A DNA stretch of 64,000 nt from Gammaproteobacteria bacterium (GTDB lineage Bacteria > Pseudomonadota > Gammaproteobacteria > Burkholderiales > Sulfuricellaceae): NCBI GenBank assembly GCA_018823025.1, contig JAHJJI010000104.1:1-64000 (forward strand), in the 5' to 3' direction. A program made the position numbers and the translations under genes. Below, piece by piece: positions 7,836 through 55,155 of this stretch. How positions within the stretch are numbered: the first letter of the stretch is position 1; each line of letters begins with the position of its first letter. The notes under the pieces were generated by a model. That model searched no databases. It was not told where the DNA came from and saw nothing but the letters and a program-made list of their open reading frames with translations.

Positions 7836-8264
7836 TTAAATTTCGAGTACTTTGGGTTGCTGCGCGCTGTGCATGTGCTGCGCGCCTTTGTAAACTTTCA
7901 GCTTACGGAACATGGCGAAGCCCAGCGGGCCTTTCGGCAGCATGCCCTTGACCGCTTTTTCCAATGGACGCTCCGGGAAACGGGCGTGCATCTTGGCGAA
8001 AGTGGTGCTGATAATCCCGCCGGGATAGCCGGTATGGCGATGGTACACCTTACCTTCGGCCTTGTTACCGGTAACGCGTAGTTTGTCCACGTTGATCACC
8101 ACGATATAATCGCCGGTATCCACGTGCGGGGTATACTCAGGCTTGTGCTTGCCGCGAAGACGCGATGCGATCTCGCTGGCCAAACGGCCCAAAACTTTGT
8201 CGGTGGCATCCACCACGTACCAATCACGTTTTACTTCGTGATCTTTTGCAGAAAAGGTTTTCAT
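7836..8264 (-). CDS. rplM: 50S ribosomal protein L13
   Basis: Early-assembly protein of the large subunit. The 142-residue sequence starts [20 protein letters not shown] and has the L13 core motif [20 protein letters not shown] and the [10 protein letters not shown] loop. A TTG six bases upstream extends the frame, but the ATG at 8264 gives the standard family start. The promoter at 8302-8331 has the same GC-rich discriminator as the rRNA promoters, which suggests joint growth-rate control. Confidence 0.98.
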
Positions 8265-8301
8265 GCACAAATTCCGGTTGCTGTATCAGAGAAAGACGCG
8301 C

Positions 8302-8331
8302 ATTTTATGTCAATAACGCAGCCGCTGTCAA
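8302..8331 (-). promoter_or_regulatory. rplM-rpsI promoter
   Basis: The minus strand has TTGACA (8326-8331), an 18-base spacer and TAAAAT (8302-8307), followed by GCGCG. The hexamers are near consensus and the discriminator matches the three rRNA promoters in this window. Confidence 0.7.
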
Positions 8332-8350
8332 ACGTTTGTCACTATTGCAG

Positions 8351-8359
8351 TGCTATAAT
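8351..8359 (+). promoter_or_regulatory. extended -10 promoter for the OsmC gene
   Basis: TGCTATAAT is an extended -10 (TGnTATAAT) about 37 bases before the ATG. No good -35 hexamer is seen at the right distance, as is common for extended -10 promoters. It backs onto the rplM promoter. Confidence 0.5.
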
Positions 8360-8395
8360 TTCGCGGCTTACAAAACTGACAAAAAAGGAAATCTC

Positions 8396-8812
8396 ATGCA
8401 GGCACGGGTTAAATGGGTAGAAGACGCCAGCTTTCTCGGCATTACTGACAGCAACCACGCAGTCCTGATGGACGGCCCACCCGACGCTGGTGGACGCAAC
8501 CTCGGGCCGCGTCCGATGGAAATGCTGCTGCTTGGCGCCGGCGGTTGCACAGCTTTCGACGTTGTAGCGATCCTGAAAAAGAGCCGTCAAGCCGTCAGTG
8601 GTTGCGAAGTTTCTATCCAAGCCGAGCGCGCCGACAAGGAGCCCAAGGTGTTCACCAAGATGCATTTCCATTTTACGGTGCGCGGCAAGGGTATCAAACC
8701 GGAGCAAGTAGAGAAAGCTATCAAGCTGTCGGCGGAGAAATACTGCTCGGCGTCAATCATGCTAGGGAAAACTGCCGAGATGACGCACGATTTCGAGATC
8801 GTGGAAGAGTAA
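8396..8812 (+). CDS. OsmC family protein
   Basis: A 138-residue protein of the OsmC/Ohr superfamily, which reduces organic hydroperoxides using paired cysteines. Visible are the family core LLGAGGCTAFDVVAILKK, with the first cysteine, and a second cysteine in EKYCSASIMLGKTAEM. It belongs to the YhfA-like branch, whose physiological substrate is unclear. The ATG at 8396 follows an AAAAAGGAAA ribosome site; the longer upstream frame crosses the promoter and is not used. It is divergent from rplM and followed by a palindromic repeat. Confidence 0.88.
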   Translation: MQARVKWVEDASFLGITDSNHAVLMDGPPDAGGRNLGPRPMEMLLLGAGGCTAFDVVAILKKSRQAVSGCEVSIQAERADKEPKVFTKMHFHFTVRGKGIKPEQVEKAIKLSAEKYCSASIMLGKTAEMTHDFEIVEE

Positions 8813-8818
8813 AAAAAC

Positions 8819-8927
8819 TTTCACCGCAAAGGACGCAAGGTTACGCAAAGGAAAACCCTTCTTGGATTGATTCTCCGAATCCCGTAGTTGATTTACCTCG
8901 CGTTCCTTTGCGTCCTTAGCGGTAAAT
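8819..8927. repeat. dispersed inverted repeat, copy 1
   Basis: The left arm (8819-8855) reads TTCACCGCAAAGGACGCAAG and on; the right arm (8893-8927) is its imperfect complement. The loop is about 37 bases and unrelated to other copies. It lies between the convergent OsmC and coq7 genes and is one of eight related copies in the window. Confidence 0.85.
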
Positions 8928-8931
8928 GCCG

Positions 8932-9558
8932 TTAAACCCAATAAGCCGTCCGCGTCATCATCCTGGCGGAAAGCTTCATCGCGATCTTCACCGGAGCGGG
9001 CAGCTCCGCTCCGCCATGCTCCAGCGCCGTGGTGGCATGCCTGGCCTCATCCTCTTTCATCTGCTCGACCACTGCACGGCTTTTTGCATCGCTAGCGGGC
9101 AGCCGCTGCAAGTGGCTGTCCAGATGGCGCACCACCTGCCGCTCCGTTTCGGCCAGAAAACCCAGATTCCATTTGTCACCCAATGCGCCGGCCAGCGCGC
9201 CAATCGCCAGCGAACCGGTATACCAGGCGGGGTTAAGCAGACTTTTGCGTCCACCCAGATCATTGATACGGCTTTCGCACCAGTTCAGGTGCTCGGTTTC
9301 CTCGCTGGCCGCCTCTTTCAGCGCCTGCTGAATTTCTGGCCTGCGCGCCGTCAGCGCCTGTCCCTGATAAAGCGCCTGCGCGCAGATCTCTCCACTGTGG
9401 TTCACGCGCATCAGCGCCGCCGCCAGCCGTTTTTCTTCCTCGCCCATCTCGGCTTCAGCCAGGCTCTTCCCTGGCAACGGACGTGAAGTTCGCGCGGGTG
9501 CAAGCAAAGTGCGCAAGCCTTTGTCGAATTCCACAATCAAGTCATCAATTTTTATCAT
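8932..9558 (-). CDS. coq7: 2-polyprenyl-3-methyl-6-methoxy-1,4-benzoquinone monooxygenase
   Basis: Di-iron hydroxylase for the C6 step of ubiquinone synthesis, so it needs oxygen. The 208-residue sequence has the ferritin-like four-helix layout and the metal-binding pattern: [20 protein letters not shown], then ETEHLNW, and [12 protein letters not shown] near the C-terminus. The ATG at 9558 ([15 protein letters not shown]) is the family start; the frame upstream lies inside glcF. It overlaps the end of glcF by 14 bases, so translation may be coupled. It ends just inside the flank of repeat copy 1. Confidence 0.93.
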
Positions 9559-10813
9559 TTTGAAACCCCATTTGTCGGGCCAGCAAAGTGATTGGATGAA
9601 CCACTTCAAGCTCTATTCCCGACGCCTTCAAGCCAGCAGCCAGATGCATGGCGCAGCCGATGTTAGAGGTTGCCAAAATCTGCGCTCCGCTGGCCTTTAC
9701 TGCCTCTATTTTATCAGCAAGCAAGCTTGCCGCCATCTCCGGCTGAGTCAGAAAATATGTTCCTGCCGCACCGCAGCACTGGTCGTTCCCCGCCAAGGGC
9801 ACAACTTCCGCTCCAGGAATACGATGCAACAGATCATAGGGCTTACCCTGGCAATGCAGCACATTTCGCATCAAGCACGGCTCGTGTACCACCAACTTTT
9901 CAGCCAGCGGCTCAATTTCAGCCGATTCCCAGCCTTCCGCCTCGCCCAGGAACTCGCTGATGTCCTTCACCCTGCCCGCGAAATCCTGAGGATAGTTTTT
10001 CAACGCCGCGCCACAACCGGTCGCGGTTGAAATCACAGCCTCCAAATTCATCCCCGCAAATGCCCGGAGATTCTGCTCCTCGAATTCGCTCACCTTCTCC
10101 GGTTCGCCCAGACCGGCATGCATGGCGCCGCAACACCCCTGCCGGGACGGCACATGCACGGTATAGCCCAAGCGGTTAAGCACAAAAATCGAGGCCGTAA
10201 GGGTTTCGACGTCTAACACTCTGGCCACACAACCGAGAAACAGCCCCACCTCGCCTCTCTCCTTGCCTGCGGCCGGGTAAATTGCCTTCCAGATTGGCTG
10301 AGGCCGCAGTCGAGGCAGCCGTGTCGCGATCTGCGCCAGAGGAGATCGCATCAACCAGCCTGCCTGGCCCAGCATAGCCTGACAGGTACGCAACACGCCA
10401 CCCACCAAGCGCAACATGGCGGGCTTCGTCGCCACGCCGTCCATCAGCACGCGCCTCCCCATCAGCTGCCACAGGCTGCGCTGGCGAGTTTTTTCCACGA
10501 CACCCCGGACTCCGTTGATCAGACGCCCATATTCCACATTATTTGGACAGACGCTCTCGCAAGCCCGGCAGGCCAGGCACAAATCGATATGCGCCAGGAA
10601 TCGTTCGTTTGCCGGAATGCGCTGCTCCAGCACGCCCTGCATCAGCACAATCCTTCCGCGCGGTGAATCCGCCTCGTTCAGCGTCTTGCGATAAGTGGGG
10701 CAGCGCGGCAGGCACAGACCGCAGGAAACGCAGCGGGCAGCCACATCGACTAACGGATCAGGCAGTTTTTCTTGAGGGTGAGAGGGAGGGTCGCTCATAT
10801 TTAGACAGGGCAT
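9545..10813 (-). CDS. glcF: glycolate oxidase iron-sulfur subunit
   Basis: Electron-transfer subunit that works with the flavin subunits GlcD/GlcE to oxidise glycolate. The 422-residue protein has two N-terminal 4Fe-4S motifs ([14 protein letters not shown] near residue 30 and [14 protein letters not shown] near 85) and two CCG domains, with the CCG triplets visible in [11 protein letters not shown] and [11 protein letters not shown]. No glcD or glcE is next to it here; only coq7 follows. The start at 10813 has a GAGGG a few bases upstream; MSDPPSH at 10798 is an alternative. Confidence 0.92.
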
Positions 10814-10825
10814 TCGCCCTCAACC

Positions 10826-11212
10826 TTACCAGAACAATTTGACAGGGTAACTCGAGAACACTCGATCAGCGCTGATCAGGTGCATATCCTCTACGACAGC
10901 CTGCGCGATCAAGAGACGATCGAAAGGGTCGCCATGAATCTGGGGAAGATCGGTAAGCCGCCATAGGTGCGGCAGTTTGATCGGCAAAATCCCCATGCCA
11001 TTGCCTTGTTGCTGCTCATCCAGTATTTGCTTTAGCGGCAGTCGCATCGTCAGCTTGCCAAGAGCGTGTTTTATTTGCAGCTCCCAAATGCTCGCAACGC
11101 TCAAATATAATGCGTTTTCGCCATTCTCGCACATAACCAGAACCCGGTCCGGCACCCTCTCTGGCTCATTCATCAGCCATAAAAACACATGGCTATCCAG
11201 CAGCAAATTCAT
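10826..11212 (-). CDS. PIN domain toxin (VapC-like)
   Basis: Probable RNase toxin of a type II toxin-antitoxin pair. The 128-residue PIN domain has the acidic metal-binding residues D6 (LLLDSHVFLW), E44 (SIWELQIK), D95/D98 (GDPFDRLL) and D116 (ISADRVF). It overlaps the antitoxin gene upstream by four bases, the usual antitoxin-first order. The pair sits between glcF and the porin gene, and its presence fits an inserted stability module. Confidence 0.9.
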   Translation of the reverse strand: MNLLLDSHVFLWLMNEPERVPDRVLVMCENGENALYLSVASIWELQIKHALGKLTMRLPLKQILDEQQQGNGMGILPIKLPHLWRLTDLPQIHGDPFDRLLIAQAVVEDMHLISADRVFSSYPVKLFW

Positions 11213-11451
11213 ATCGGGCCGGTACCCAGCCAGAACGCATCCGGTAGCAGCTCATCGAAATCATCACTAATCGAGAAATCCCCGCGATGCAGGCCAAAAA
11301 CCCGCTTCTTTCTCGGCGGCACCAGCGGAACCAGCCTGGCAATCGGCTTGTTAGCCTTGGCGATGACCACATCCTCGCCCGCCAACGCCAGCGCCAACAG
11401 CTCCGACAAATGAGTTTTTGCCTCATGAATATTAACGGTTCGAGTAGACAT
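11209..11451 (-). CDS. Phd/YefM family antitoxin
   Basis: An 80-residue antitoxin. The N-terminal half carries the Phd/YefM DNA-binding fold (NIHEAKTHLSELLALALAGEDVVIAKANKPIARLVPL), and the C-terminal half should wrap the toxin. It would neutralise the PIN toxin and repress its own operon. An ATGA-type overlap joins it to the toxin gene. A 12-base palindrome lies just before the start and may be the operator. Confidence 0.9.
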   Translation of the reverse strand: MSTRTVNIHEAKTHLSELLALALAGEDVVIAKANKPIARLVPLVPPRKKRVFGLHRGDFSISDDFDELLPDAFWLGTGPI

Positions 11452-11459
11452 AAGCCCTC

Positions 11460-11482
11460 CTTGACTAATATATTAGCTAAGT
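11460..11482 (-). promoter_or_regulatory. possible antitoxin operator
   Basis: The perfect palindrome CTAATATATTAG (11465-11476) lies about 15 bases before the antitoxin start, in an AT-rich stretch. The position is typical for autorepression by Phd-type antitoxins. Binding is an inference. Confidence 0.45.
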
Positions 11483-11515
11483 CTAATCATAATAAAAATT
11501 ATCGTCAACCAATAA

Positions 11516-11543
11516 AAAACGGGCCTCCGAAGAGGCCCGTTTT
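11516..11543. terminator. terminator after the porin gene
   Basis: ACGGGCCTC and GAGGCCCGT form a perfect stem with a CGAA loop, with A and T tracts outside. It ends the porin transcript on the minus strand. Confidence 0.85.
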
Positions 11544-11581
11544 AATCTTCACACTTCAAACCGGACTAAGCCGGTGAGAAA

Positions 11582-12709
11582 TTAGAAGGTGTGCTTCATG
11601 CCCACCGACAGGGAGGACACATCGGCACCAGTGCCAACCGGAGTAACGGTCTGACCATGGCCCGTGCCAGCCAAGCCCAATGCGTAGGCGCCATTGGTGT
11701 CGTTATCCATCTTGGCGTACACAACATAAGCCGAAGTGCGCTTGGAGAGGCTGTGGTTCAAGCCCAACGCATACATCTTGGCGCCATTGTCAGTTGTGTT
11801 GGTGGTGGAGCCAGCTTTGCCATAGGTAAAGTTGATGGCGTTAGCGCCCATCGTGTATGAAACAGGCAGAGACCAGCCTTTACGCTCTACAGTAGCACCG
11901 AGAGTAGCGTTGGAAGCAGAAATCTTCTCCCATACCAGACCCAGCTTGAAAGCGTCAATCTTGTAGCCCAGACCGATCTTGGTCGCGGCAGCATCGTTGT
12001 TAGCACCCACCATAGGCAGGGCGGTTTGAGTGCTGACTGCGGTTTGGGTATTGCTGGCCTTCTCACGAGCCAAGGAAGCGAAGAACGGGCCATTCTCATA
12101 CTTACCCATCAGCGAATAGGCTTTGCCATCAGGCTGCGTGGTGCTGGAGGTTTCGTTGGCGGCCACGATGGCACCGGCGAAGCTGAAACCGCTAAAGTTC
12201 GGGGAAATGTAAGCAGAAACGTTGCCCAGACGGCTGTCGAAATAGTTAACACCATTCACTTGGCCGACGATGCCGTTGTAATCACCAACGGTGTCAGCCA
12301 TGTTGTCCAGTGAGCCAGTAGCCATCTTGTAAGGGGAGTCGTGCTTACCGAATAGAGCGGTACCCATGGTCTTGCTGCTCAGGCCCAGGTAGGTGTTGCG
12401 GGAAGCAAAACCACCGCTGGTAGCGGCGGCTGCATCGGAACGTGAATCCATGCTAATGTCTGCTTCCATCTGCCAAATGGCGGACAGGCCGTTGCCCAGA
12501 TCTTCCGTGCCCTTGAAGCCAATCAGGGATGTGTTGCTGGAAAGACGGGTGTTTTTCTCGCTGTTGACGCCAGCAGTGGAGGTGCCGTAGCTGTTGTTAT
12601 CCAGGGAAACGTGAGCCTGGCCGTAGATGGTGACATTGCCGCTGTCAGCCATGGCTGCAGCAGGAGCGATTGCGGCAGCAACTGCCAAAGCGATAAGTTT
12701 TTTGTTCAT
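11582..12709 (-). CDS. Gram-negative porin
   Basis: A 375-residue outer-membrane porin of the betaproteobacterial general-diffusion type. The signal peptide is MNKKLIALAVAAAIAPAAAMA, cut before DSGN. The mature protein begins with the family strand VTIYGQAHVSLDN and ends in GMKHTF, the terminal phenylalanine recognised by the Bam complex. Alternating beta-strand pattern is seen throughout. The ATG at 12709 follows a TAGGAGA ribosome site. It has its own promoter and terminator, so it is a single-gene unit; substrate preference cannot be read. Confidence 0.92.
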   Translation of the reverse strand: MNKKLIALAVAAAIAPAAAMADSGNVTIYGQAHVSLDNNSYGTSTAGVNSEKNTRLSSNTSLIGFKGTEDLGNGLSAIWQMEADISMDSRSDAAAATSGGFASRNTYLGLSSKTMGTALFGKHDSPYKMATGSLDNMADTVGDYNGIVGQVNGVNYFDSRLGNVSAYISPNFSGFSFAGAIVAANETSSTTQPDGKAYSLMGKYENGPFFASLAREKASNTQTAVSTQTALPMVGANNDAAATKIGLGYKIDAFKLGLVWEKISASNATLGATVERKGWSLPVSYTMGANAINFTYGKAGSTTNTTDNGAKMYALGLNHSLSKRTSAYVVYAKMDNDTNGAYALGLAGTGHGQTVTPVGTGADVSSLSVGMKHTF

Positions 12710-12781
12710 GTAGTGATCTCCTAGAGAGGTTGGTTTTGCAACGAGGCTCTTGATTGAGCCCTGTCCTTTACAGACGAGTTC

Positions 12782-12811
12782 ATTATCACCACCCTTCCCC
12801 TCGAATTCCAA
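12782..12811 (-). promoter_or_regulatory. possible porin promoter
   Basis: The minus strand has TTGGAA (12806-12811), an 18-base spacer and GATAAT (12782-12787), giving a leader of about 65 bases. The hexamers are fair. The remaining gap up to trpC holds only repeat copy 2. Confidence 0.4.
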
Positions 12812-12896
12812 GCACAAGTCGATAAAAACGTCTTGTTTTTCATTGGAAGGGGAAAATGTGTTGTTTTTTTGCAACGCACAGTCTAAAAACACAGCT

Positions 12897-13000
12897 TAAC
12901 CGCAATGGACGCGAAGGACGCAAAGGAAATCCCAACCCTTCAGACATGCGAGCCTGATTGCTTTTCCTTTGCGAGCCCTTGCGTCCTTTGCGGTGAATGT
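12897..13000. repeat. dispersed inverted repeat, copy 2
   Basis: Left arm near 12897-12930 and right arm 12962-13000, both of the CCGCAAAGGACGC type. It follows trpC and lies upstream of the porin gene. The loop is about 30 bases. Confidence 0.85.
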
Positions 13001-13032
13001 TCTTTAAATAAGATTTAGAAATCAAATTTAGG

Positions 13033-13821
13033 TTAGCCGAACAACCGCGCCAACTCGATCCCCGGGTCATCGGCGCGCATGAAGGCCTCGCCGACCAGAA
13101 AGGCGTTGACGCCTTGACCACGCATCATCTGCACGTCCATCGGCTTGAGAATGCCGCTTTCGGTGATGACAATGCGATCGCCGGAAATGCGCGGCAGCAA
13201 ATCGAGCGTGGTTTCGAGCCGGGTTTCGAAGGTGCGCAGGTTGCGGTTGTTGATGCCGATCAGCGGGGTCTTGAGCTGCAGGGCCGCCTCCAGTTCGGCG
13301 GCGTCGTGCGACTCCACCAGCACTGCCATCCCCAGTTCGTGGGCCAGCGCCTCCAGTTCTTTCATCTTCGACAGCTCTAGCGCCGCCACGATCAGCAGGA
13401 TGGCATCGGCGCCGATGGTGCGGGCACGACAGATCTGGTAGGGATCGATCATGAAGTCCTTGCGCAGCACCGGGATGTTGCAGGCTGCGCGCGCTTCGAT
13501 CAGGTGGTTCTTGCTGCCCTGGAAAAACTGAACGTCGGTCAACACCGACAAACAGGCCGCACCATGGGCCTCATAGCTTCGGGCAATGGCAGCGGGATCG
13601 AAGTTCTCTCTAATTACACCTCTGGAAGGGCTGGCTTTCTTGATCTCGGAGATCACCGCCGGTTTGCCTGATGCGATCATGTCTCGAATGGCGCCAACGA
13701 AATCGCGCGGCTTCGGCATTGCTTCCGCTTCGGCGCGGATGGCCGCATAGGGTTTTTTCGCCACGGCGCGAGCAACTTCGGCTTGTTTGACTTCGAGGAT
13801 TTTTTGCAGGATGTCGGACAT
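13033..13821 (-). CDS. trpC: indole-3-glycerol-phosphate synthase
   Basis: Closes the indole ring in tryptophan synthesis. The 262-residue TIM barrel has the family N-terminus [16 protein letters not shown], then [16 protein letters not shown] with the catalytic lysine, [23 protein letters not shown] and the phosphate-binding VTESG (ITESGILKP). The ATG at 13821 is preferred over a GTG 12 bases upstream. It is the last gene of the operon and is separated from trpD by a repeat element that carries another gene. trpF, trpB and trpA are not in the window. Confidence 0.96.
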
Positions 13822-13857
13822 TTTTGTTTTCACCGCGGAGGCTCATTAGAAAAATAA

Positions 13858-14311
13858 TTCACCGCAAAGGACGCGAAGGTACGCAAAGGAAAAACTTACA
13901 AACCATTTACGATCCGCCTGATGCCGTCACGCATATGGATGACATTGAAATTAAGGACAAAGCCAAGCTTATGGCCGCTTAATTTTAGATAGCTCAATAA
14001 CTGGGCGGTATGAATGGGTGCCAATTTCTCCACCGCTTTTAATTCAACAATGACGCAATCACCAACCAGCAAGTCAAGCCGATAGCCGGCATCGAGCTTT
14101 AAACCATCATATACAACTGGAAGGGCTACCTGGCGTTTAACATCGAGCCCATTTTTCTCTAGTTCGTAAGCAAGGCACACCTCATATGCGCTTTCCAGCA
14201 AACCGCAGCCCAAAGCGCTATGGACCCTCATAGCCTCGGCAATTATCCGCTTACCGACCCGCTCTTCTTGATCTTGCATTCCCTTGCGTACCTTCGCGTC
14301 CTTTGCGGTTA
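13858..14311 (-). mobile_element. inverted-repeat element carrying a GxxExxY gene (copy 3)
   Basis: Two arms of the dispersed repeat, 13861-13886 and 14284-14309, are perfect complements over 26 bases and enclose one small gene. The other copies in the window have only a short loop. The layout (perfect terminal inverted repeats, one nuclease-like gene, insertion between two operon genes) looks like a mobile element whose empty forms are the other copies. A further partial arm lies at 13826-13848. Mobility is an inference. Confidence 0.6.
13896..14279 (-). CDS. GxxExxY protein (PD-(D/E)XK nuclease-like)
   Basis: A 127-residue member of the GxxExxY family. The motif is G26-x-x-E29-x-x-Y32 in GCGLLESAYEV. 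Downstream, D69 in YRLDLLVG and the E79-x-K81 of VIVELKAVE match the PD-(D/E)XK nuclease core, and a late helix follows. No biochemical role is established for the family as far as I know. It sits within perfect 26-base inverted arms of the dispersed repeat, between trpD and trpC, on the operon's strand, so it is probably transcribed with them. Confidence 0.85.
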   Translation of the reverse strand: MQDQEERVGKRIIAEAMRVHSALGCGLLESAYEVCLAYELEKNGLDVKRQVALPVVYDGLKLDAGYRLDLLVGDCVIVELKAVEKLAPIHTAQLLSYLKLSGHKLGFVLNFNVIHMRDGIRRIVNGL

Positions 14312-15340
14312 GACCGCTTTAAAGCGATTCGAGAATGCAATCAACTGTTCCAGCTTGGCCTTGGCTTCGCCGCTGGCGATGGCATGAATCGCCTTTTTCA
14401 CCCCGGCTTCCAGCGTCTGCGCCATGCCGCCGACGTAAATCGCTGCACCGGCATTGAGGGCGACGATGTCGCGAGCGGCACCGTATTCGTTGCCGAGTAC
14501 GGCGAGCAGCCTGACTTTGGCTTCCTCGGGATCATGCGCCTTGAGCGCCTCGACTGAGCCGAGTTGCATGCCGAATTCTTCGGGATCGATGGCGTATTCG
14601 ATAATGCCGCCATCCTTGAGTTCAGCGACGTGGGTTTCGGTCGTGATGGTGATTTCGTCCATGCCGTCGCCGCCATGCACTACCATGACGTGGTTCGCAC
14701 CCAGCGATTTCAGCGCTTCCGCGAGCGGGCGGCACAAATCCTTGCGGAACACGCCCATCACCTGGTTTTTCGCCCCGGCCGGATTGGTCAGCGGACCCAG
14801 CAGGTTGAACAGGGTGCGCACGCCCAGTTCGCGCCGCACCGGCGCGGCGTATTTCATGGCGCTGTGGTGGTTGGGTGCGAACATGAAGCCGACGCCGATC
14901 TCCTGGATGGACTGCGCCACCTGCTCGGGGGTGAGGTTGACGTTGACGCCCAGCGTCTCCAGCACATCGGCACTGCCGCAAGTGGAAGACACCGAGCGAC
15001 CACCATGCTTGGCGACTTTCACACCCGCAGCAGCGGCAACCAGCGCAGACGCCGTGGAGATATTGAAAGTATGTGCACCATCGCCGCCGGTGCCGCAGGT
15101 ATCCACCAGATGTTGCTCTGCGCCCACCGGCACCCTGTTCGAAAGCTCGCGCATCACCTCGGCGGCGGCAGCGATTTCAGCCACGGTCTCACCCTTGGCG
15201 CGAAGCGCAACCAGAATACCGGCGATCTGCACCGGCGTCAGTTCCCCACCCATGATCTGCTTCATCACTGACAGCATCTCGTCGCGGGTCAGGTCACGTT
15301 TTTCCAGCAGGGTTGTTAATGCAGCTTGCGGCGTCATCAT
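14309..15340 (-). CDS. trpD: anthranilate phosphoribosyltransferase
   Basis: Transfers phosphoribose from PRPP to anthranilate. The 343-residue protein shows the helical N-terminal domain ([30 protein letters not shown]), the PRPP loop [35 protein letters not shown], and the [11 protein letters not shown] motif. It overlaps trpG by four bases. Its TAA stop is formed by the outer end of a repeat element arm (TAACCGC), which suggests that the insertion set or changed the natural end. Confidence 0.97.
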
Positions 15341-15909
15341 GGCAGCTTCTCCTTGAGGAAGTTAGCCAGCATCTCATGGCCATACTCGGTCAGAATGGAT
15401 TCGGGATGGAACTGCACACCCTCCACTTGCAGAGCCTTGTGGCGCACACCCATGATCTCGCCGTCTTCGGTCCAGGCAGTGATCTCCAGACAATCGGGAA
15501 TGCTCTCGCGCTCGATCACCAGTGAATGGTAACGAGTGGCGCGGAACGGGTTGGGCAAATCCCTGAACACACCCATGTCCTTGTGGTGGATCATCGAGGT
15601 TTTGCCATGCATCAGCTGTTTGGCATGAACGATCTTGCCACCGAAAGCCTGGCCGATACTCTGATGGCCCAGACACACGCCAAGCAGCGGCACCTTGCCG
15701 GCAAATCCCATGATCAGTGGCACCGAGATGCCTGCCTCGTTCGGCGTGCATGGCCCCGGGGAAATCACGATATGGTCAGGCTTGAGCGCCGCGACCTGTT
15801 TTACGGTAATTTCGTCGTTGCGAAATACCCGCACCTCTGCACCCAACTCGCCGAAATACTGCACCAGGTTGTAGGTGAAGGAGTCGTAATTGTCGATCAT
15901 CAAAAGCAT
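15337..15909 (-). CDS. trpG: anthranilate synthase, glutaminase subunit
   Basis: Releases ammonia from glutamine for TrpE. The 190-residue class I glutamine amidotransferase begins [19 protein letters not shown] and has the catalytic cysteine in [15 protein letters not shown] (about residue 79) and the His-x-Glu pair in [14 protein letters not shown]. It is separate from TrpE, as in most betaproteobacteria. It is joined to trpD by an ATGA overlap, while repeat copy 4 lies between it and trpE. Confidence 0.97.
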
Positions 15910-15919
15910 AGATAAAACC

Positions 15920-16000
15920 TTTCACCGCTAAGGACGCAAAGGTCCGCGAAGGAAATCTTAATCGAACTCCTTTGCGTACCTTCGCGTCCCTTGCGGTAAG
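15920..16000. repeat. dispersed inverted repeat, copy 4
   Basis: Left arm 15920-15955 and right arm 15966-15999 with a loop of only about ten bases. It fills the trpE-trpG spacer and would form a long hairpin in the operon mRNA. Confidence 0.88.
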
Positions 16001-16005
16001 GAATT

Positions 16006-17481
16006 TCAGTCATTCTGGCCAGTCAATCCACTAAGCGCCAGTTCCGCCGCGCGCAGCACGGCACGCGCCTTGTTGCGGGTTTCCGTCCATTCGCTGTCCG
16101 CCACCGAGTCGGCGACGATACCCGCGCCCGCCTGAACGTAGAGCGTGCCATCCTTGACCACCGCGGTACGAATGGCGATCGCCAGATCCATGTCGCCGTT
16201 GAAGCCGAGATAGCCTACTGCGCCGGCGTAGATGCCGCGCTTGGTCGGTTCCAGCTCGTCGATAATTTCCATCGCGCGCACCTTGGGCGCACCGGACACG
16301 GTGCCCGCCGGAAAGGTGGCGCGCAGCACGTCCATCGCGTTCTGACCGCTTTTCAGCTTGCCTTCGACGTTGGAAACGATGTGCATGACGTGGGAGTAAC
16401 GCTCGATGGCCATGTTCTCGGTGACCTTGACCGAACCGGTCTGGGCAACGCGCCCTGCATCGTTACGCCCCAGGTCCATCAGCATCAGGTGTTCGGCCAG
16501 TTCCTTGGGGTCAGCCAGCAGGTCAGCAGCCAGCGCCTCGTCCTCTTCGCGGGTCTTACCGCGCGGGCGGGTACCGGCGATCGGACGCACGGTAACGGTT
16601 TCATCTTCCAACCGCACCAGAATTTCCGGCGACGAGCCGACCACCTGAAAATCACCCATGTCGTAATAGAACATGTACGGCGAAGGGTTGAGCGAGCGCA
16701 ATGCGCGGTAGAGGGAAAGCGGCGAGGCGGCGAAAGGCTGCGACATGCGCTGGGACAGCACCACCTGCATGATGTCGCCGTCGAAAATATAGCGCTTGGC
16801 TTTTTCCACCGCCAGCTTGAAAGCCTCTTCGCCGAATTCCGAAGCTGCCGGTGCAGGCGGATAAGAGGCCGTAACAGGGATTTCCACTGGCTTATTCAAC
16901 TGGCTACGCATTTCATCCAGCCGCGTCAGGCCGCGTGCATACGCGCCGGGCTGGGTGGGATCGGCATACACAACCAGATAAATTTTGCCGGACAGATTGT
17001 CTACCACCGCGACTTCCTCCGACAGCAGCAGCAGGATATCCGGCGCGCCCAGCACGTCCGGCTTGACGGTGTGGGCCAGCTTTTTCTCGATATAGCGAAT
17101 GGTGTCGTATCCAAAGTAGCCCGCCAACCCGCCAGTGAAGCGGGGCTGACCGGGGTGCTCGGCCACTTTCATGCGCGCGACGTAATCCTGAACAAACTGC
17201 AACGGGTCATCGGTTTCGAGCTGTTCCAGCACTGCGCCCTCATTTTCGACGCTGACGCTGCAGCCATGCACCCTGATCCGGGTTTTGGCCGGCAGGCCGA
17301 TAAAAGAATAACGACCGAAACGCTCCCCCCCCACCACCGATTCCAGCAAGTAGGAATAAGGCCGGTTAGCCAGCTTGAGATAAACGCTCAAGGGTGTATC
17401 GAGGTCGGCCAGGGTTTCCCTGACCAGCGGGATGCGATTGTAACCTTGGGCGGCAAGGGCGTTAAATTCGTGTTCAGTCAT
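16006..17481 (-). CDS. trpE: anthranilate synthase component I
   Basis: Converts chorismate to anthranilate, the first committed step to tryptophan. The 491-residue protein has the N-terminal allosteric domain, with the tryptophan-site stretch [16 protein letters not shown], and the C-terminal chorismate-binding domain: [42 protein letters not shown] and the final GAGIVADSV. The N-terminal site implies feedback inhibition. It lies between repeat copies 4 and 5. Confidence 0.97.
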
Positions 17482-17487
17482 ATAAAC

Positions 17488-17630
17488 TTTTCACCGCGAA
17501 GGACGCGAAGGAACGCAAAGGAAACCTAAAAACCATCATCATAGCAATGACACAATTTTCAAGCTTTGTGGCTGCGCAGGGCTTTTATTGAAGCCTTCCC
17601 TTGCGAACCTTTGCGTCCTTTGCGGTTAAT
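17488..17630. repeat. dispersed inverted repeat, copy 5
   Basis: Left arm 17488-17524 and right arm 17595-17630 around a 70-base loop with no recognisable gene. It lies between gph and trpE. The right arm ends in the gph stop codon. Confidence 0.88.
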
Positions 17631-18315
17631 TTGCTTTTTTAATCAACGCCAACAATTCCGGCAGGCTGTCGATCACCGCATCGCAGTCCTGTTCGCGCAC
17701 ATCCTTGCCGCCGTTGTAACCGTAAGGCAACAGCACCACCGGACAACCCGCAGCGCGCGCAGCCTGACTATCGTTCAGAGAGTCGCCCACCAGCAGCAGG
17801 TCCTTGGTCTCGACTTCGTAGTAAATGGCGGCATATCGCAGCGGCAGGGGATCCGGTTTTTTGCGTGGCAGGCTGTCACCAGACAGGATCAGATCGAAAT
17901 AATCCTTCATACCCATCGCCGCCAGCAGCGGCAAGGTGAAGCGCTGCGCCTTGTTGGTGATGCAGACCAGGGTATAACCGGCATCGCGCAAGGCCTTCAG
18001 GCCCTCCATTACACCTGGATAAGGCTGGGTTTCGCGGTGCAACACTTCATCGTAATGTTTCTCGAACAGCGGCAGCGCCTTGACGAACAGGGCATCATCC
18101 GGCTTACCGTGCATTTCGCCGGTGAGCGCCCGCTTCACCAGGTTGGCAATACCGTTGCCGATGTAGGACCGGATTGTATCCAGGCTGACTGGGGGCATCG
18201 CCAGATCGCGCAGCATGCGCTGCGCCGCCTCGGCGAGATCCGGAGCGGTATTCAGCAAGGTGCCGTCGAGATCGATGACGACGGCTTTGACGGGTAATGG
18301 GAAGATATTTTTCAA
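17626..18315 (-). CDS. gph: phosphoglycolate phosphatase
   Basis: Hydrolyses 2-phosphoglycolate, a by-product of RuBisCO oxygenation or of DNA repair. The 229-residue HAD hydrolase has motif I DLDGTLLNTAPDLA, motif II VCITNK, and motifs III/IV KKPDPLPLRYA and LLVGDSLNDSQAARAAG. The cap region fits the Gph subfamily. It sits between rpe and trpE, the usual betaproteobacterial order. Its TAA stop lies at the end of a repeat arm. Confidence 0.93.
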   Translation of the reverse strand: MKNIFPLPVKAVVIDLDGTLLNTAPDLAEAAQRMLRDLAMPPVSLDTIRSYIGNGIANLVKRALTGEMHGKPDDALFVKALPLFEKHYDEVLHRETQPYPGVMEGLKALRDAGYTLVCITNKAQRFTLPLLAAMGMKDYFDLILSGDSLPRKKPDPLPLRYAAIYYEVETKDLLLVGDSLNDSQAARAAGCPVVLLPYGYNGGKDVREQDCDAVIDSLPELLALIKKAN

Positions 18316-18325
18316 TGAAAACCTC

Positions 18326-18410
18326 TTTCACCGCCAAGGACGCAAAGGAACGCGAGGTAACCCATGAACCTGGTTTTCCTTTGCGTACCTTCGCGTCCTT
18401 GGCGGTTAAT
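18326..18410. repeat. dispersed inverted repeat, copy 6
   Basis: Left arm 18326-18360 and right arm 18373-18410 with a short loop. It fills the spacer between rpe and gph, leaving only about ten bases on the gph side. Confidence 0.88.
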
Positions 18411-18414
18411 GTCT

Positions 18415-19101
18415 TTAAACTTTAGCCAATTCAGCGCGCATTGCGGCGATAATCGAATCGTAGCGGTGCGGATCGCTGTCCTTGGCGGCGCCAAACACGG
18501 CCGAACCAGCCACGAAGGTGTCCACACCTGCCTTGGCGACTTCCAGGATGTTGCCGGGGCCGACGCCACCATCAATTTCCAGGCTCACGTTCAGGCCGCG
18601 CGCGTCGATCATCTGGCGCACTTTGCGTGCCTTGTCGAGGACGTAGGGGATGAATTTCTGGCCGCCGAAACCGGGGTTCACCGACATCAACAACACCATA
18701 TCGAGCTTGTCCAGGGTATATTCCAGAACGTCCAGCGGAGTGGCCGGGTTGAACACCAGACCGGCCTTGCAGCCGCTTTCCTTGATCAGGCCGATGGTAC
18801 GATCGACGTGCTCGGAAGCTTCCGGGTGGAACGTGATGTAGCTAGCGCCAGCCTTGGCGAAGTCGGGGATGATGCGATCCACCGGCTTGACCATCAGATG
18901 CACGTCGATGGGTGCGGTCACGCCATGCTTGCGCAGCGCCTCGCACACCAGCGGGCCGATGGTCAGGTTGGGCACATAATGGTTGTCCATGACATCGAAG
19001 TGAACGATGTCGGCGCCAGCGGCGAGAACGTTGTCCACCTCCAGGCCCAACGTGGCGAAGTTGGCGGACAGGATGCTTGGCGCAATTCTGTATTGGGGCA
19101 T
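18415..19101 (-). CDS. rpe: ribulose-phosphate 3-epimerase
   Basis: Interconverts ribulose-5-phosphate and xylulose-5-phosphate in the pentose phosphate or Calvin cycle. The 228-residue TIM barrel has the family N-terminus [15 protein letters not shown], the metal-site histidine and aspartate in [13 protein letters not shown], the HLMV (VHLMVKPVD) motif, [12 protein letters not shown], and [13 protein letters not shown]. The ATG at 19101 follows AAAGGAAG; a TTG upstream is less likely. It heads the rpe-gph-trpEGDC transcript. Confidence 0.97.
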
Positions 19102-35315: not shown

Positions 35316-36287
35316 ATGGATACTTTCTCTCTTATCGGCCACTCCCCAATTTTCCGTCAACTGCTGAATACGGCACAACTGGTTGCCGCAACACGCGCGA
35401 CCGTGCTGATCTGCGGCGAATCGGGCAGCGGCAAGGAAAATCTGGCGCGCTTCCTGCACACTCACAGCCCCCTGGCGAGTCGGCCCTTCATTGCGGTCAA
35501 CTGCGCCAACCTGCCGGAAAACCTGGTGGAGTCGGAGCTATTCGGCCATCGCCGCGGCGCTTTCAGCAACGCCGTTGTCGACCGCGACGGCTTGGTGCGG
35601 GCAGCCCACAACGGCACATTATTCCTCGACGAGATCGGCGAACTGCCGCTAACGGCGCAGGCCAAAATGTTACGTTTCCTGGAAAACGGCGAAATCCTGC
35701 CGCTGGGTTACGATCAGCCGATCAAGGCCAACGTACGCGTAATCGCTGCGACCAACTGCGATCTGGAACAGATGGTGAAGATCGGCCGCTTCCGCGCCGA
35801 CCTGTTTTACCGCTTGCAGGTGGTGCCAATGGAAGTGCCGCCGCTGCGCGAACGCGCGAGCGACATTGGCTTGCTGATAGAACATTTTGTTGAAATGGCG
35901 GCACAGCAGCACAGTCTCAATGCAGTTTCCTTCAGCCCGGAAGCAACAAAAGTGCTCAAGGCTTACGACTGGCCTGGCAACGTGCGCGAGTTGAAAAACC
36001 TGTGTGAGCGCCTGACGATTTTGTGCAATTTCCAGCGCGGCTCGCTGGGCGTGGAAAACCTGCCGCTCAACATCCGCGGTGGGCAGCGTGTTGCCACATC
36101 CAGCCCTGCGACTGCCCCGCTCAACCTGGAACAGACCGAGCGCGATCTCATCCTGCAAGCTCTGGAACAGACCAGAGGCAACCGCACCCGTGCCGCCAAG
36201 CTGCTGGGCATCAGTCGCTACACCCTGCTTTACCGGATAAAGAAATACTTTGGCGCCGAAGAATCCGGCCTTGTGGGCGAAGCGTAA
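35316..36287 (+). CDS. sigma-54-type AAA+ regulator without receiver domain
   Basis: A 323-residue transcription factor made of an AAA+ domain and a C-terminal Fis-type helix-turn-helix (NRTRAAKLLGISRYTLLYRIKKY). Walker A is GESGSGKE (residues 34-41), Walker B is in TLFLDEIGEL (about 101-110), and the arginine-finger region LFYRLQVVPMEVPPLRER is present. The sigma-54 contact loop is GAFSNA (81-86) in place of GAFTGA, which may weaken or abolish sigma-54 activation. There is no sensor domain, only eight or so residues before the AAA+ start. It is divergent from receptor 3, its likely target. Confidence 0.88.
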   Translation: MDTFSLIGHSPIFRQLLNTAQLVAATRATVLICGESGSGKENLARFLHTHSPLASRPFIAVNCANLPENLVESELFGHRRGAFSNAVVDRDGLVRAAHNGTLFLDEIGELPLTAQAKMLRFLENGEILPLGYDQPIKANVRVIAATNCDLEQMVKIGRFRADLFYRLQVVPMEVPPLRERASDIGLLIEHFVEMAAQQHSLNAVSFSPEATKVLKAYDWPGNVRELKNLCERLTILCNFQRGSLGVENLPLNIRGGQRVATSSPATAPLNLEQTERDLILQALEQTRGNRTRAAKLLGISRYTLLYRIKKYFGAEESGLVGEA

Positions 36288-36297
36288 ACAGACAGCT

Positions 36298-36339
36298 TCC
36301 TAAATAAAACGGCTCCTTTAGGAGCCGTTTTATTTAGGA
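36298..36339. terminator. long perfect hairpin terminator
   Basis: A 19-base stem (TCCTAAATAAAACGGCTCC and its complement) with a TTTA loop lies between the convergent regulator and ferritin-like genes. It has A/T-rich ends and can work both ways. Confidence 0.8.
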
Positions 36340-36345
36340 ATTACT

Positions 36346-36771
36346 CTATTTCGACTTGATCACCGTCAGCAGGTCACGCTTGTGCTCTTCCTCCTGGATC
36401 AGGATATCCTCGAGCACCCGGCGCAAACCATACTCCTTGAGCGCCTCAGCCTGGGAAATCCGTTCTTTGTAGCGATTGATGGCATTGTCCTCGCCCTTTA
36501 GATCCTGCTTCAGCATCGCCAGGCTGTCGCTGTCGGTTTCGCGCTTTTCCACGTCCACCGTGGGCACCCCACCCAGAAAATCAATCTGGTCGGACAGCAT
36601 AACGGCGTGCATCATCTCCTCCTGAGAGTGAATGATCAATTCCTTCTGGATCGATTCGTACTGAGCACCGGTGATCGCGGAAGCATGCTGGACGTACTGA
36701 ACAGCCGCGGCGTATTCCCACTCCAAGTCTTTGTTGAGTTCTGCTAGCAGTTTCTTTTTGGTGATTTTCAT
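36346..36771 (-). CDS. ferritin-like protein (bacterioferritin family)
   Basis: A 141-residue four-helix protein of the ferritin-like superfamily. Di-iron ligands are in LEWEYAAAVQYVQHA (E near residue 17), HSQEEMMHAVML (E and H near 51-55), and EDILIQEEEHKRDLL near the C-terminus. It may store or detoxify iron. It is shorter than standard bacterioferritin (about 158) and no haem methionine can be assigned. The ATG at 36771 follows AAAGGAGAG. The methyltransferase gene lies upstream on the same strand, 41 bases away. Confidence 0.8.
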   Translation of the reverse strand: MKITKKKLLAELNKDLEWEYAAAVQYVQHASAITGAQYESIQKELIIHSQEEMMHAVMLSDQIDFLGGVPTVDVEKRETDSDSLAMLKQDLKGEDNAINRYKERISQAEALKEYGLRRVLEDILIQEEEHKRDLLTVIKSK

Positions 36772-41368: not shown

Positions 41369-41450
41369 TCACCGCAAAAGACGCAAAGGAACGCGAAGGA
41401 AAGCTTTACCTCGTTTCCCCTTGCGAACCTTTGCGTCCTTTGCGGTAAAT
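41369..41450. repeat. dispersed inverted repeat, copy 8
   Basis: Left arm 41369-41402 (CTCACCGCAAAAGACGCAAA and on) and right arm 41414-41450. It lies between amgK and murU and is the only copy found outside 8.8-19.8 kb. Confidence 0.88.
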
Positions 41451-51736: not shown

Positions 51737-53857
51737 TCAGGATGCCAGTTTCGAAATGTCCGCCACCTGGTTCATCAGTTCACCCAGGCTTTTCAGCAGC
51801 GCCAGACGATTCGCACGCAGCTGCGGCTCCTCGGCCATCACCATCACCTGGTCGAAAAAGGTATCGACCTCGGTGCGCACGCCGGCCAGTGCCGTCAATG
51901 CTTCTGTATAACCGCCATTCTGCACCGATGAGACCACACGCGGGGCCAGTTCGTTCATCGCCTCGAACAGCGCCTTTTCAGCCGGCTCCGACATCAGCGC
52001 CAGTTCCGCCCCGCCCGCCGGCAATTCGCCGGCTTTTTTCAGGATGTTCTGGATGCGTTTGTTCGCCGCCGCCAGCGCTGCCGCCTCGGGCAGTTGCTTG
52101 AAGGCGCGCACCGCGTCCAGGCGCGGAACCACCCGGTCGATGCGGGTCGGCGCCTGGCTTACCACGGCGTCAATCTCGTCCGGCGCAAAGCCCTTGTCGC
52201 GCAGATAGCCCTTCAGCCGCTCCAGCATGAAACCGTGAACATCCAGCGCCACGCTGTCGGCCAGCATTTCCGCCGGGAACAGTGCGCGGGTCTGCTGCAG
52301 CAACTGCAGCAAGTCGAGCGGCAGCCCCGACTCGGCGAGGATCCGCAGCACGCCCAGGGCGTGACGGCGCAGTCCGAAGGGGTCCTTGTCGCCGGTAGGC
52401 ACCAGGCCGACGCCGTAGATGCCGACCAGGGTATCCAGCTTGTCGGCCAGCGCCGCCGCCGCGCCGATGTTGTCCTGCGGCAGCGCATCGCCGGCGAAGC
52501 GCGGCCAGTAATGCTGCTCGATGGCGCGCGCCACTTCCTCGCGCTCGCCGTCATGCAGGGCATAGTATTGGCCCATGATGCCCTGCAGTTCGGGGAACTC
52601 GCCCACCATGTCAGTCAGCAAATCGGCCTTGGCGAGGTGTGCGGCGCGCTCGGCCAGCTCGGCGCTGGCGCCCAAATGGCGGGCGATCTCTCCGGCCAGC
52701 TTGGTAACGCGCTGAGTCCGCGCCAGCTGAGTGCCGAGCTTGTTGTGGTAGACCACGCTGCCCAGCTTCGCCACGCGTGTAGCCAGGGTATGCTTGCGGT
52801 CCTGGTCGAAGAAGAACTTGGCGTCCGCCAGACGCGGGCGCACCACCCGCTCGTTGCCGCCGATCACCGCACTCGGGTCGGCTGGGCGGATGTTGGACAC
52901 GATCAGAAACTGATTGCTCAACTTGCCGGCCGTATCCAGCAACGGGAAATATTTCTGGTTCGCCTTCATGGTCAGGATCAGGCATTCCTGCGGCACGCCG
53001 AGAAATTCCTCGCCGAAGCAGCCGACCAGCACATTGGGGCGCTCCACCAGACCCGTAACTTCGTCCAGCAAGGCATCGTCCTCGACCGGCTTCACACCGC
53101 CGATTTTCGCCGCCGCATCATGCAACTGTCGCACGATATCGGCGCGACGCGCCTCAAAGCTGGCAATCACCGCTCCCTCGTTTTTCATCTGCGCCGCATA
53201 GCTATCGGCCTCTTTGAGGCTGACCGGGCTGACAGCCGCCTCGAAGCGGTGGCCCTGGGTAGTCCGCCCGGCGGTCAGGCCGAGCACTGAAACCGGCACC
53301 ACCTCGGCACCGTGCAGAGCCACCAGGCCATGCACCGGGCGCACAAAATTGACTGTGCTCCAGCCGGGCTGTTCACAATTTTCATGCAACTGATAGGCCA
53401 TTACCTTGGGAATCGGCAGCTTGGTCAGCGACTCGTCCAGTGCCTTCTGCAGCCCTTCCACCAGAGTCGCGCCCTTGGCCACACTATCGAAAAACAGCGC
53501 TTCGCCCTTGCCTTCGCCGACGCGCTTGAGATTCGGAACCATAGCCTCATCCAGTCCCAGCGCAGCAAGCCGTTTCAGCAACGCAGGCGTAGCCTTGCCA
53601 TCGGCATCAAGCCCCACGTTCACCGGCATCAGTTTGTGCGACACCGGTTTGTCCGCAGCCTGTGCAGCCACACCCGCAACCTGCACCGCGAGACGGCGCG
53701 GCGAGGCGTAAGGCGTGACGGCGGCATCGGCCGCAGCCAGACCCTGCGCCTTGAGAGAATCCGCAATGGCAGCGGCAAAGGCCTCGCCCAGCTTCTTCAG
53801 CGCCTTGGGCGGCAGCTCTTCGACAAACAGTTCGACCAGCAGGTTTTTCGTACTCAT
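51737..53857 (-). CDS. glyS: glycyl-tRNA synthetase beta subunit
   Basis: Works with GlyQ in the alpha2-beta2 enzyme and binds tRNA-Gly. The 706-residue protein has the family start [16 protein letters not shown], the [11 protein letters not shown] region, [22 protein letters not shown], and the C-terminal DALR-type anticodon domain. The ATG at 53857 overlaps by four bases the stop of a 37-residue frame made by a tandem duplication, so the normal glyQ-glyS junction is changed here. Confidence 0.96.
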
Positions 53858-53967
53858 GCTGCCACCTCTTCAACCACCATTCCAGATTTCACTTCACCAC
53901 GTCGGTGGCCGGCAGCAATCACGGCCGGTCGCATCCCCACTGCGTGGGGCCCCTGCTTCCTGCTCAT
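53854..53967 (-). CDS. 37-residue coupled frame 2 in the glyQ-glyS spacer
   Basis: A 114-base frame that starts at 53967 within the stop of frame 1 and stops within the ATG of glyS (ATGA at both ends). The product begins [16 protein letters not shown] and ends VVEEVAA, the same last residues as GlyQ (VAA). It differs from frame 1 at several residues (for example RRGEVK against HHEVES) with no stop gained. Whether the peptide matters or only carries ribosomes from glyQ to glyS is not known. Confidence 0.45.
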
Positions 53968-54077
53968 GCTGCCACCTCATCAACCGCTATTCCAGATTCC
54001 ACCTCATGATGTCGGTGGCCGGCAGCAATCGCGGCCGGTCGCATCCCCACTGCGTGGGGCCCCTGCTTCCTGCTCAT
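53964..54077 (-). CDS. 37-residue coupled frame 1 in the glyQ-glyS spacer
   Basis: The first copy of the 110-base duplication, overlapping the glyQ stop by four bases and frame 2 by four bases. The product begins [16 protein letters not shown] and ends IAVDEVAA. It has no similarity to known proteins that I recognise. It could be translated by reinitiation after glyQ. Confidence 0.45.
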
Positions 54078-55071: not shown

Positions 55072-55155
55072 GTAGGATGGGTTGAGCGTAGCGATACCCA
55101 TGCCGCTCTGTTGTTCGAAGAATTGATGGGTATCGCTACGCTCAACCCATCCTAC
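55072..55155. repeat. perfect 30-base inverted repeat
   Basis: The arm 55072-55101 (GTAGGATGGGTTGAGCGTAG and on) is a perfect complement of 55126-55155, with a 24-base loop. It is unrelated to the CCGCAAAGGACGC family. It resembles palindromes widespread in other proteobacterial genomes. The stop codon TAG of the GIY-YIG gene lies in its right end. Confidence 0.9.

Follow-up and report, generated by a model that had tools for sequence, protein, structure and literature searches.

A small gene of the GxxExxY family lies inside the trp operon of a bacterium of the family Sulfuricellaceae, enclosed by two repeat arms in inverted orientation. Are gene and arms one element, and does the encoded protein act on the repeats around it? 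An earlier note on this DNA had taken the gene-bearing copy for the intact parent of a repeat family and the repeats for the possible target of the protein. We found no description of such a partnership in the open-access literature and, in open-access papers, no assigned role for GxxExxY/PF13366 proteins, which occur in many phyla; the papers found that name GxxExxY or PDDEXK_3 are few and, in their accessible text, concern other matters and are silent on arms or function. Within the window, which here means the whole stretch of 64,000 nucleotides that was analysed, the locus is made up as follows.

13033..13833, minus strand: trpC, flanking gene (ORF; orthologues in relatives by tblastn)
13861..13891, plus strand: outer arm on the trpC side, units CGCAAAG, CGCGAAG and CGCAAAG at spacings of 9 and 10 nt (inverted-repeat alignment)
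13896..14279, minus strand: gene of the GxxExxY protein, 127 aa (TIGR04256 and PF13366 profiles; alignments; model)
14279..14309, minus strand: outer arm on the trpD side, units as in the trpC-side arm (inverted-repeat alignment)
14309..15340, minus strand: trpD, flanking gene (ORF; orthologues in relatives)

We take the flanking reading frames to be trpC and trpD from their sequence, and trpC also from the order of the operon; the GxxExxY gene is placed between them, and the TAA stop codon of trpD (14309-14311) overlaps the outer end of the trpD-side arm. The complementarity over 26 bases claimed for the arms is borne out: 13861-13891 matches 14279-14309 over 26 bases without mismatch, the next position is an A/G mismatch and the last four match again, so that the 31-nt arms are 97% complementary (30/31 positions agree). 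The local-alignment score of the pair is 28.5; shuffling these flanks 200 times gave 13.5 at most. This is the only GxxExxY gene in its genome, where the arm core has 156 matches with at most 3 mismatches, compared with 13 for the reversed pattern.

The window protein scores 145.5 bits with TIGR04256 (GxxExxY; cut-off 35) and 144.3 bits with PF13366 (PDDEXK_3; cut-off 22), matches no other profile and, by score and motif, is a member of this family. The residues D69 and E79-x-K81, named earlier as a PD-(D/E)XK core, are present as claimed and invariant in alignments of 16 and of 52 relatives, as are G26, E29, Y32, Q93 and Y97, so that the GxxExxY motif (G26, E29, Y32) and the core (D69, E79, K81) are intact and the window protein has E29, D69, E79-x-K81 and Q93xxxY97. 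With these residues, the profiles and a confident structure model (pLDDT 95.8) all in support, the protein is predicted to be an intact PD-(D/E)XK nuclease. Foldseek returned no solved chain at E <= 0.001 for the model, its best match being an alkaline exonuclease (E 0.0025); VIA-align placed SSO0001 first (Z 9.6), followed by other PD-(D/E)XK proteins, including Hjc (1gef, 6.8) and Cas4 (4r5q, 6.6), at Z 6-8, a range in which common arrangements also score. Cas4/RecB-type and Hjc nucleases are thus the nearest solved folds. Cas4 has four conserved Fe-S cysteines, whereas in the alignment of 52 GxxExxY relatives no column that is invariant, or nearly so, is a cysteine. We dropped the idea of a defence system, for which PADLOC gave only a weak Cas4 match (E 0.029). 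The gene is, judging from substitution rates, under purifying selection: dN is 0.019 and dS 0.50 between the loci L001 and L034 (dN/dS ~0.04), and dN/dS is 0.13 between L039 and L043.

The earlier note had proposed to ask whether arms of this kind also flank GxxExxY genes in other genomes. Counting an arm pair when the inverted repeat scored at least 13 and each arm held at least two CRC units, we found arms at 109 of the 139 loci with full 300-nt flanks and at none of 60 control ORFs taken from these loci; for inverted repeats scoring at least 15 the figures are 113/139 and 2/60. By source, 15/15 loci of the window's bacterial family, 55/74 from named genomes, 37/48 from the phylum sample and 2/2 from viral contigs pass. 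The family has 16 GxxExxY genes in 10 of its 22 genomes, and all 16 lie between inverted arms (scores 16.5-31.0; best of 200 shuffles each, 12.0-13.5). The batch from named genomes, 80 loci of many phyla including one Methanosarcinales, consists of the best 80 of 559 relatives and therefore leans toward proteins like that of the window, and the two viral-contig loci were picked up through one peptide pattern. In the Pseudomonadota sample 44 of 397 genomes gave a match; 49 loci were added, these being 49 of the 68 non-own matches listed (29 + 20), with fragments, one stop-bearing copy, a second copy in a 624-codon frame and four full-length ones left out. Altogether 147 loci were collected; the count of 139 leaves out eight whose flanks were incomplete. 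Many of the 30 failing loci belong to Bacteroidota; some, such as L063, L078, L085, L088 and L094 in that phylum, have no trace of arms, and others have degraded ones. A phage origin was rejected, with 0 matches in 50,697 phage records, 8 in 72,556 plasmid records and the two loci in viral contigs. In many phyla, then, the gene has matching arms at most of the sites examined, and the unit of the arms recurs in scattered hairpins without a gene in the same genomes (see below); together this points to one mobile partnership of enzyme and repeats.

The arms share a common design. Most of them (138/224) contain the 7-nt unit CRCNNNN three times, and over all arms the distance from one unit to the next is 9 nt (184 cases), 10 nt (104) or 8 nt (78). 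The unit varies among loci (CGCAAAG, CACAGAG, CACGAAT, CGCCGAT, CACGGGG and others) and is common to both arms of one locus. On a FastTree phylogeny built from the proteins at 112 loci, the unit requires 4 changes at base 7, compared with a mean of 19.4 and a minimum of 17 in 300 shuffles; the corresponding figures are 22 (mean 35.0, lowest 28) for base 2, 30 (41.4, 33) for base 4 and 18 (38.2, 31) for base 5. Base 7 is T in 11 of the 12 loci whose proteins have YEN after the motif and G in 90 of the 91 classed as YE. Where a genome holds several genes, each has its own unit, which tracks the clade of the protein and not the genome: CGCAAAG, CACGAAT and CACAAAA occur in G008, CGCGGAG and CGCCGAT in G010, and CACGGAA and CACAGAG in G015. 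An attempt to link particular residues of the protein to bases of the unit gave nothing significant, the independent pairs being too few. Coupling between unit and clade could also come from co-inheritance without recognition.

A link between protein and repeat is supported by this coupling and by the gene-less hairpins of the same genomes. Six of these lie in the window; they were found in an inverted-repeat census and have no strand.

8820..8926: gene-less hairpin with the unit of the window element (score 15.0)
12896..12997: gene-less hairpin with the unit of the window element, beyond trpC (score 18.5)
15924..15997: gene-less hairpin between trpG and trpE (score 17.5)
17490..17629: gene-less hairpin between trpE and a gph-like phosphatase gene, the latter named by eye (score 19.0)
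18327..18409: gene-less hairpin beyond the gph-like gene (score 20.0)
41371..41446: gene-less hairpin with the unit of the window element (score 17.5)

Such hairpins are frequent between genes in the window's genus, and their places recur: the trpG/trpE junction is also occupied in G008, G013, G010 and G012, and the place beyond the gph-like gene in G003, G009 and G010. The census covered a sample of 394-454 kb in each of five genomes, evenly spaced in G003 and G015 and made of selected contigs in G000, G008 and G010, with trp regions and contigs that carry a gene among them. It yielded 69 gene-less hairpins with coherent units, 35 of which have exactly the unit of a resident gene and 49 a unit within one base of it. 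The true assignment of gene sets to genomes beats the other 119 of 120 permutations, the means over all 120 being 13.6 exact matches and 22.6 within one base. The nine hairpins within one base of CACGAAT, for example, are all from G008, where one of the genes has this unit; the other four genomes have none. The match is not complete: G003, without a GxxExxY gene, has four hairpins in 420 kb (the three of the first census all in the trp region), and G008 has five CGCCAAG hairpins in the census and no gene of that exact unit in its draft assembly. Dispersed CGCCAAG hairpins of G008 with shared loops were seen at L302:8663, L304:7015, L306:1346, L306:5173, L309:4160 and L313:568.

Several simpler accounts of the gene-less hairpins were considered and set aside. 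At first sight the trp hairpins bring a stop codon at one end and a GGTGA ribosome site at the opposite end, but the idea was given up because the wider set from the same genome has variable ends and neighbouring genes in all orientations. Concerted evolution of the trpE/gph hairpin was abandoned because unit replacement within one hairpin and repeated insertion at the junction are equally likely; the loops there are weakly alike in G010, G006, G003 and G009 (scores 10.0-29.0, those of G010/G009, G006/G003 and G006/G009 below the best of 500 shuffles), and those of G000, G013 and G008 form a separate group. Deletion of the gene was likewise not accepted as their origin: 4 of 42 loops exceeded 40 shuffles when compared with resident genes, but all four are of the CACGAAT type, in which arms of four units extend into the segment taken as the loop, and they do not count as evidence. 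As a separate observation, the loop of the 17490-17629 hairpin is inverted in G008 (L214:6664-6799) relative to G000 and G013, and the arms in G008 are identical to each other, which is probably the outcome of recombination or template switching at the hairpin. The window holds further structures beside these: a palindrome with 32-nt arms and a 2-nt loop (36286-36351), unlike the unit-array hairpins, a 110-nt tandem duplication, 90% identical (53847-54066), and a pair of adjacent small ORFs that look, by eye, like a PIN-domain toxin and its antitoxin (10826-11451, minus strand).

One family of gene-less hairpins, with the unit CACGAAT in G008, G007 and G013, is recently mobile. The queried copy in G008 has at least 12 further copies at 96-98% identity, and the mobile copies are ~176 bp long, running from CCTGAAAA to TTTTWAGG. 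Among 19 copies read (14 in G008, 4 in G007, 1 in G013), exact 5-bp direct repeats flank 17; in 100,000 trials of shuffled pairing the mean was 1.9, and 17 was not reached once. Target sites follow the pattern WTNAW, with T at position 2 in 18/19 and A at position 4 in 19/19, and an empty site in G007 has a single ATGAA where the G008 element sits between two. The outer ends of these copies occur 66 times in G008, also on hairpins of other units, and zero times for the reversed pattern.

The gene-bearing elements present a different picture, and the notion of an intact parent is not supported. The outer end of the mobile copies, CCTNAAAANNNNNATTAACC, was not found with up to one mismatch at any of the three G008 elements that carry a gene, and over all elements with a gene the terminal motif shows no enrichment (6/222 arms; shuffled 2.9, most 8). 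Target duplication could not be demonstrated at them either: candidate duplications number 61/111, against 51-54 expected and maxima of 62 and 66 under a null that keeps composition. An apparent signal of 50/111 against a shuffled mean of 33.5 (0/200) was discarded, because its null pools genomes that differ in composition; under a null that preserves the composition locus by locus, duplications of 5 and 6 nt show no excess beyond it and those of 7 nt are marginal (15; null most 11-13). Pooled old hairpins gave no significant duplication (22 against a mean of 14.1, most 26). Nor do copies with a gene generally have the better arms. The earlier statement that the arms around the gene surpass those of empty copies is right within the window (28.5 against 15.0-20.0 in the six gene-less hairpins) but wrong in general, since one gene-less hairpin scores 27.5 in the window's own genome (L326) and another 31.5 in the relative G008, the latter with identical cores.

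Comparison of fixed sites showed how gene and arms change together. Eleven trpD-trpC junctions of relatives comprise four with gene and arms (G000, G013, G008, G010), three with a gene-less CACAGAG hairpin (G012, G003, G004), one with a decayed hairpin (G006), two with other sequence and one with no insert (G002). This junction is apparently an insertion hot spot in the trp operon; the other sequence, in G005 and G009 (L132, L135), is ~615-620 nt long. The gene-bearing CACGAAT element of G008, at a site of its own, is missing from the corresponding junction in G000, G003, G004 and G013, which have 8-19 nt there, and G006 has a divergent allele with the unit CACGGAT at this site. In ten pairwise comparisons, two of which had no common site, the arms are nearly unchanged where divergence of the gene does not exceed that of its flanks (L001/L034: arms 31/31 and 31/31, gene 0.91), and the unit is changed where a divergent gene allele stands between orthologous flanks (CGCAAAG/CGCGGAG in L001/L035, CACGAAT/CACGGAT in L044/L038). 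Gene and unit are thus exchanged together at a fixed site. Between the draft assemblies of G013 and G008 the gene agrees at 382/384 positions (99.5%) and the arms are identical, with the adjoining trpD at 0.86-0.88, a pattern that homing or transfer would give.

The arrangement recalls several known systems. RAYT (TnpA-REP) enzymes and their REPIN repeats are reported as co-evolved in the available text of two studies (PMC8266576; PMC3116915), and REPs end in GTAG according to the accessible part of a third (PMC3733652). The GxxExxY element has the same layout, with an often single-copy gene flanked by inverted cognate palindromes and many gene-less intergenic doublets dispersed around the genome. 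However, RAYTs are HuH (Y1) enzymes and GxxExxY proteins have a PD-(D/E)XK core, and REPs are tagged with GTAG whereas the window arms begin with ACCGC and the CRCNNNN arrays with ACCRC. With an unrelated enzyme and a differently built repeat, the GxxExxY element is therefore not a member of the RAYT/REPIN family. Elsewhere in the window, a perfect 30-nt palindrome with a 24-nt loop (55072-55155) does begin with GTAG, like a REP of that type. The gene-less copies resemble bacterial MITEs in being short, dispersed and near-identical, with terminal inverted repeats and 5-bp duplications, although terminal inverted repeats together with target duplication were found only for the CACGAAT family of G008, G007 and G013, and the inner part of the hairpins, unlike that of a MITE, is an array whose units agree with those of a nuclease gene in the same genome; no transposase with the outer ends was found. 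A single site with occupied, hairpin-only and empty alleles in sibling genomes, and a near-identical element in otherwise diverged genomes, are reminiscent of homing endonuclease elements, from which the GxxExxY element differs in that its arms are iterated repeats recurring at many sites. Finally, 23S rRNA intervening sequences with genes of the four-helix-bundle S23 protein, as described in the text available of PMC4990558, also place a small ORF between complementary ends, but the window element lies between trpD and trpC and not in rRNA, and its protein is unrelated. S23 (TIGR02436) genes of the window's bacterial family (L156-L176, L178, L179) were themselves seen between inverted arrays of other units (GTGAGGA, TCAGTTT and AGTCCTG among them), 14 of 23 passing the shuffle test and two fragments being unscored; they are possibly a second, parallel system.

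A model that we consider probable is that gene and arms are one DNA element whose PD-(D/E)XK nuclease recognises the 7-nt unit, in a partnership like that of RAYT and REPIN but with an unrelated enzyme. That gene and arms form one unit, with the protein as cognate partner of the unit arrays, is well supported, and reading of the units as DNA by the protein would be the simplest reason for the coupling between them. The element would consist of two inverted arms of CRCNNNN arrays (8-10 nt apart) with the nuclease as its sole gene; the nuclease would bind the arrays as DNA and may nick or cut cognate hairpins or target sites. Such cutting could bring about the spread and homogenisation of the hairpins, and also a homing-like replacement of the nuclease's own gene. 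We advance a bolder version only tentatively: GxxExxY proteins may be the recognition and mobilising enzymes of phylum-spanning DNA elements, each reading a unit iterated at about one helical turn, cutting hairpin and target, copying hairpins and homing its own gene, with clades differing in the unit read (base 7 being G, T or A by protein clade) and hairpins rewritten when the enzyme changes.

The main competitor, possible though rather unlikely, makes the gene a passenger. The hairpins would be MITEs moved by a separate, unlinked transposase acting at the outer CCTNAAAA ends with 5-bp duplications at WTNAW, and the nuclease gene would shelter in or home into hairpins that it does not move. 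A regular 5-bp duplication is typical of transposases; the 66 outer ends in G008 are common to hairpins of different units and absent from gene-bearing elements; and hairpins exist in G003, a genome without the gene. This account leaves unexplained why the inner unit tracks the resident nuclease and why gene and unit change jointly, and inward-facing ends 0.7-3 kb apart, the span that a transposase gene would need, were not seen among the 66 in G008, although the draft assembly could lack such a pair. An RNA element is improbable. The arms could be an mRNA or intervening-sequence-like stem bound or processed by the protein, for instance in self-regulation, as all arms face inward and could fold in a transcript and the S23 genes also stand between inverted arrays (14/23). 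However, transitions between the arms, read on the gene's strand, are wobble-compatible in 125 cases and incompatible in 133 (p 0.66), or 33 and 38 when counted by locus, and the lack of a G-U bias favors DNA over RNA. In addition, positions 8000-19000 of the window have no Rfam match, and the gene-less copies insert as DNA with target duplications.

Even less probable is a host-domesticated nuclease that checks hairpins, cutting cruciforms or resolving replication intermediates, and is kept for this benefit while the hairpins move by other means. The strong purifying selection, the usually few copies per genome, the fold, not far from that of Holliday-junction resolvases (Z 6.8), and the perfect arms with inverted loop in G008, a sign of recombination at hairpins, would all suit such an enzyme, but a housekeeping gene need not lie inside a repeat at 109 of 139 loci or be replaced jointly with it. 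Coincidence, in which common intergenic palindromes happen to stand beside small genes, has a negligible chance: hairpins are indeed frequent between genes of this genus, but the 0/60 control ORFs in the same loci refute it for the family as a whole, and it does not account for the coupling of unit and protein.

Returning to the one-element model, tying GxxExxY/PF13366 proteins to cognate hairpins gives the family a function that can be tested with one protein and oligonucleotides. If the model is true, the nuclease-palindrome partnership known for HuH enzymes would extend to an unrelated fold and a modular repeat, and there would be an explanation for many unnamed hairpins between genes that break up trp and other operons. 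The link between clade and unit is a natural set for studying DNA recognition by small PD-(D/E)XK enzymes and, should the phylum-spanning version hold, protein and unit would together constitute a readable recognition code.
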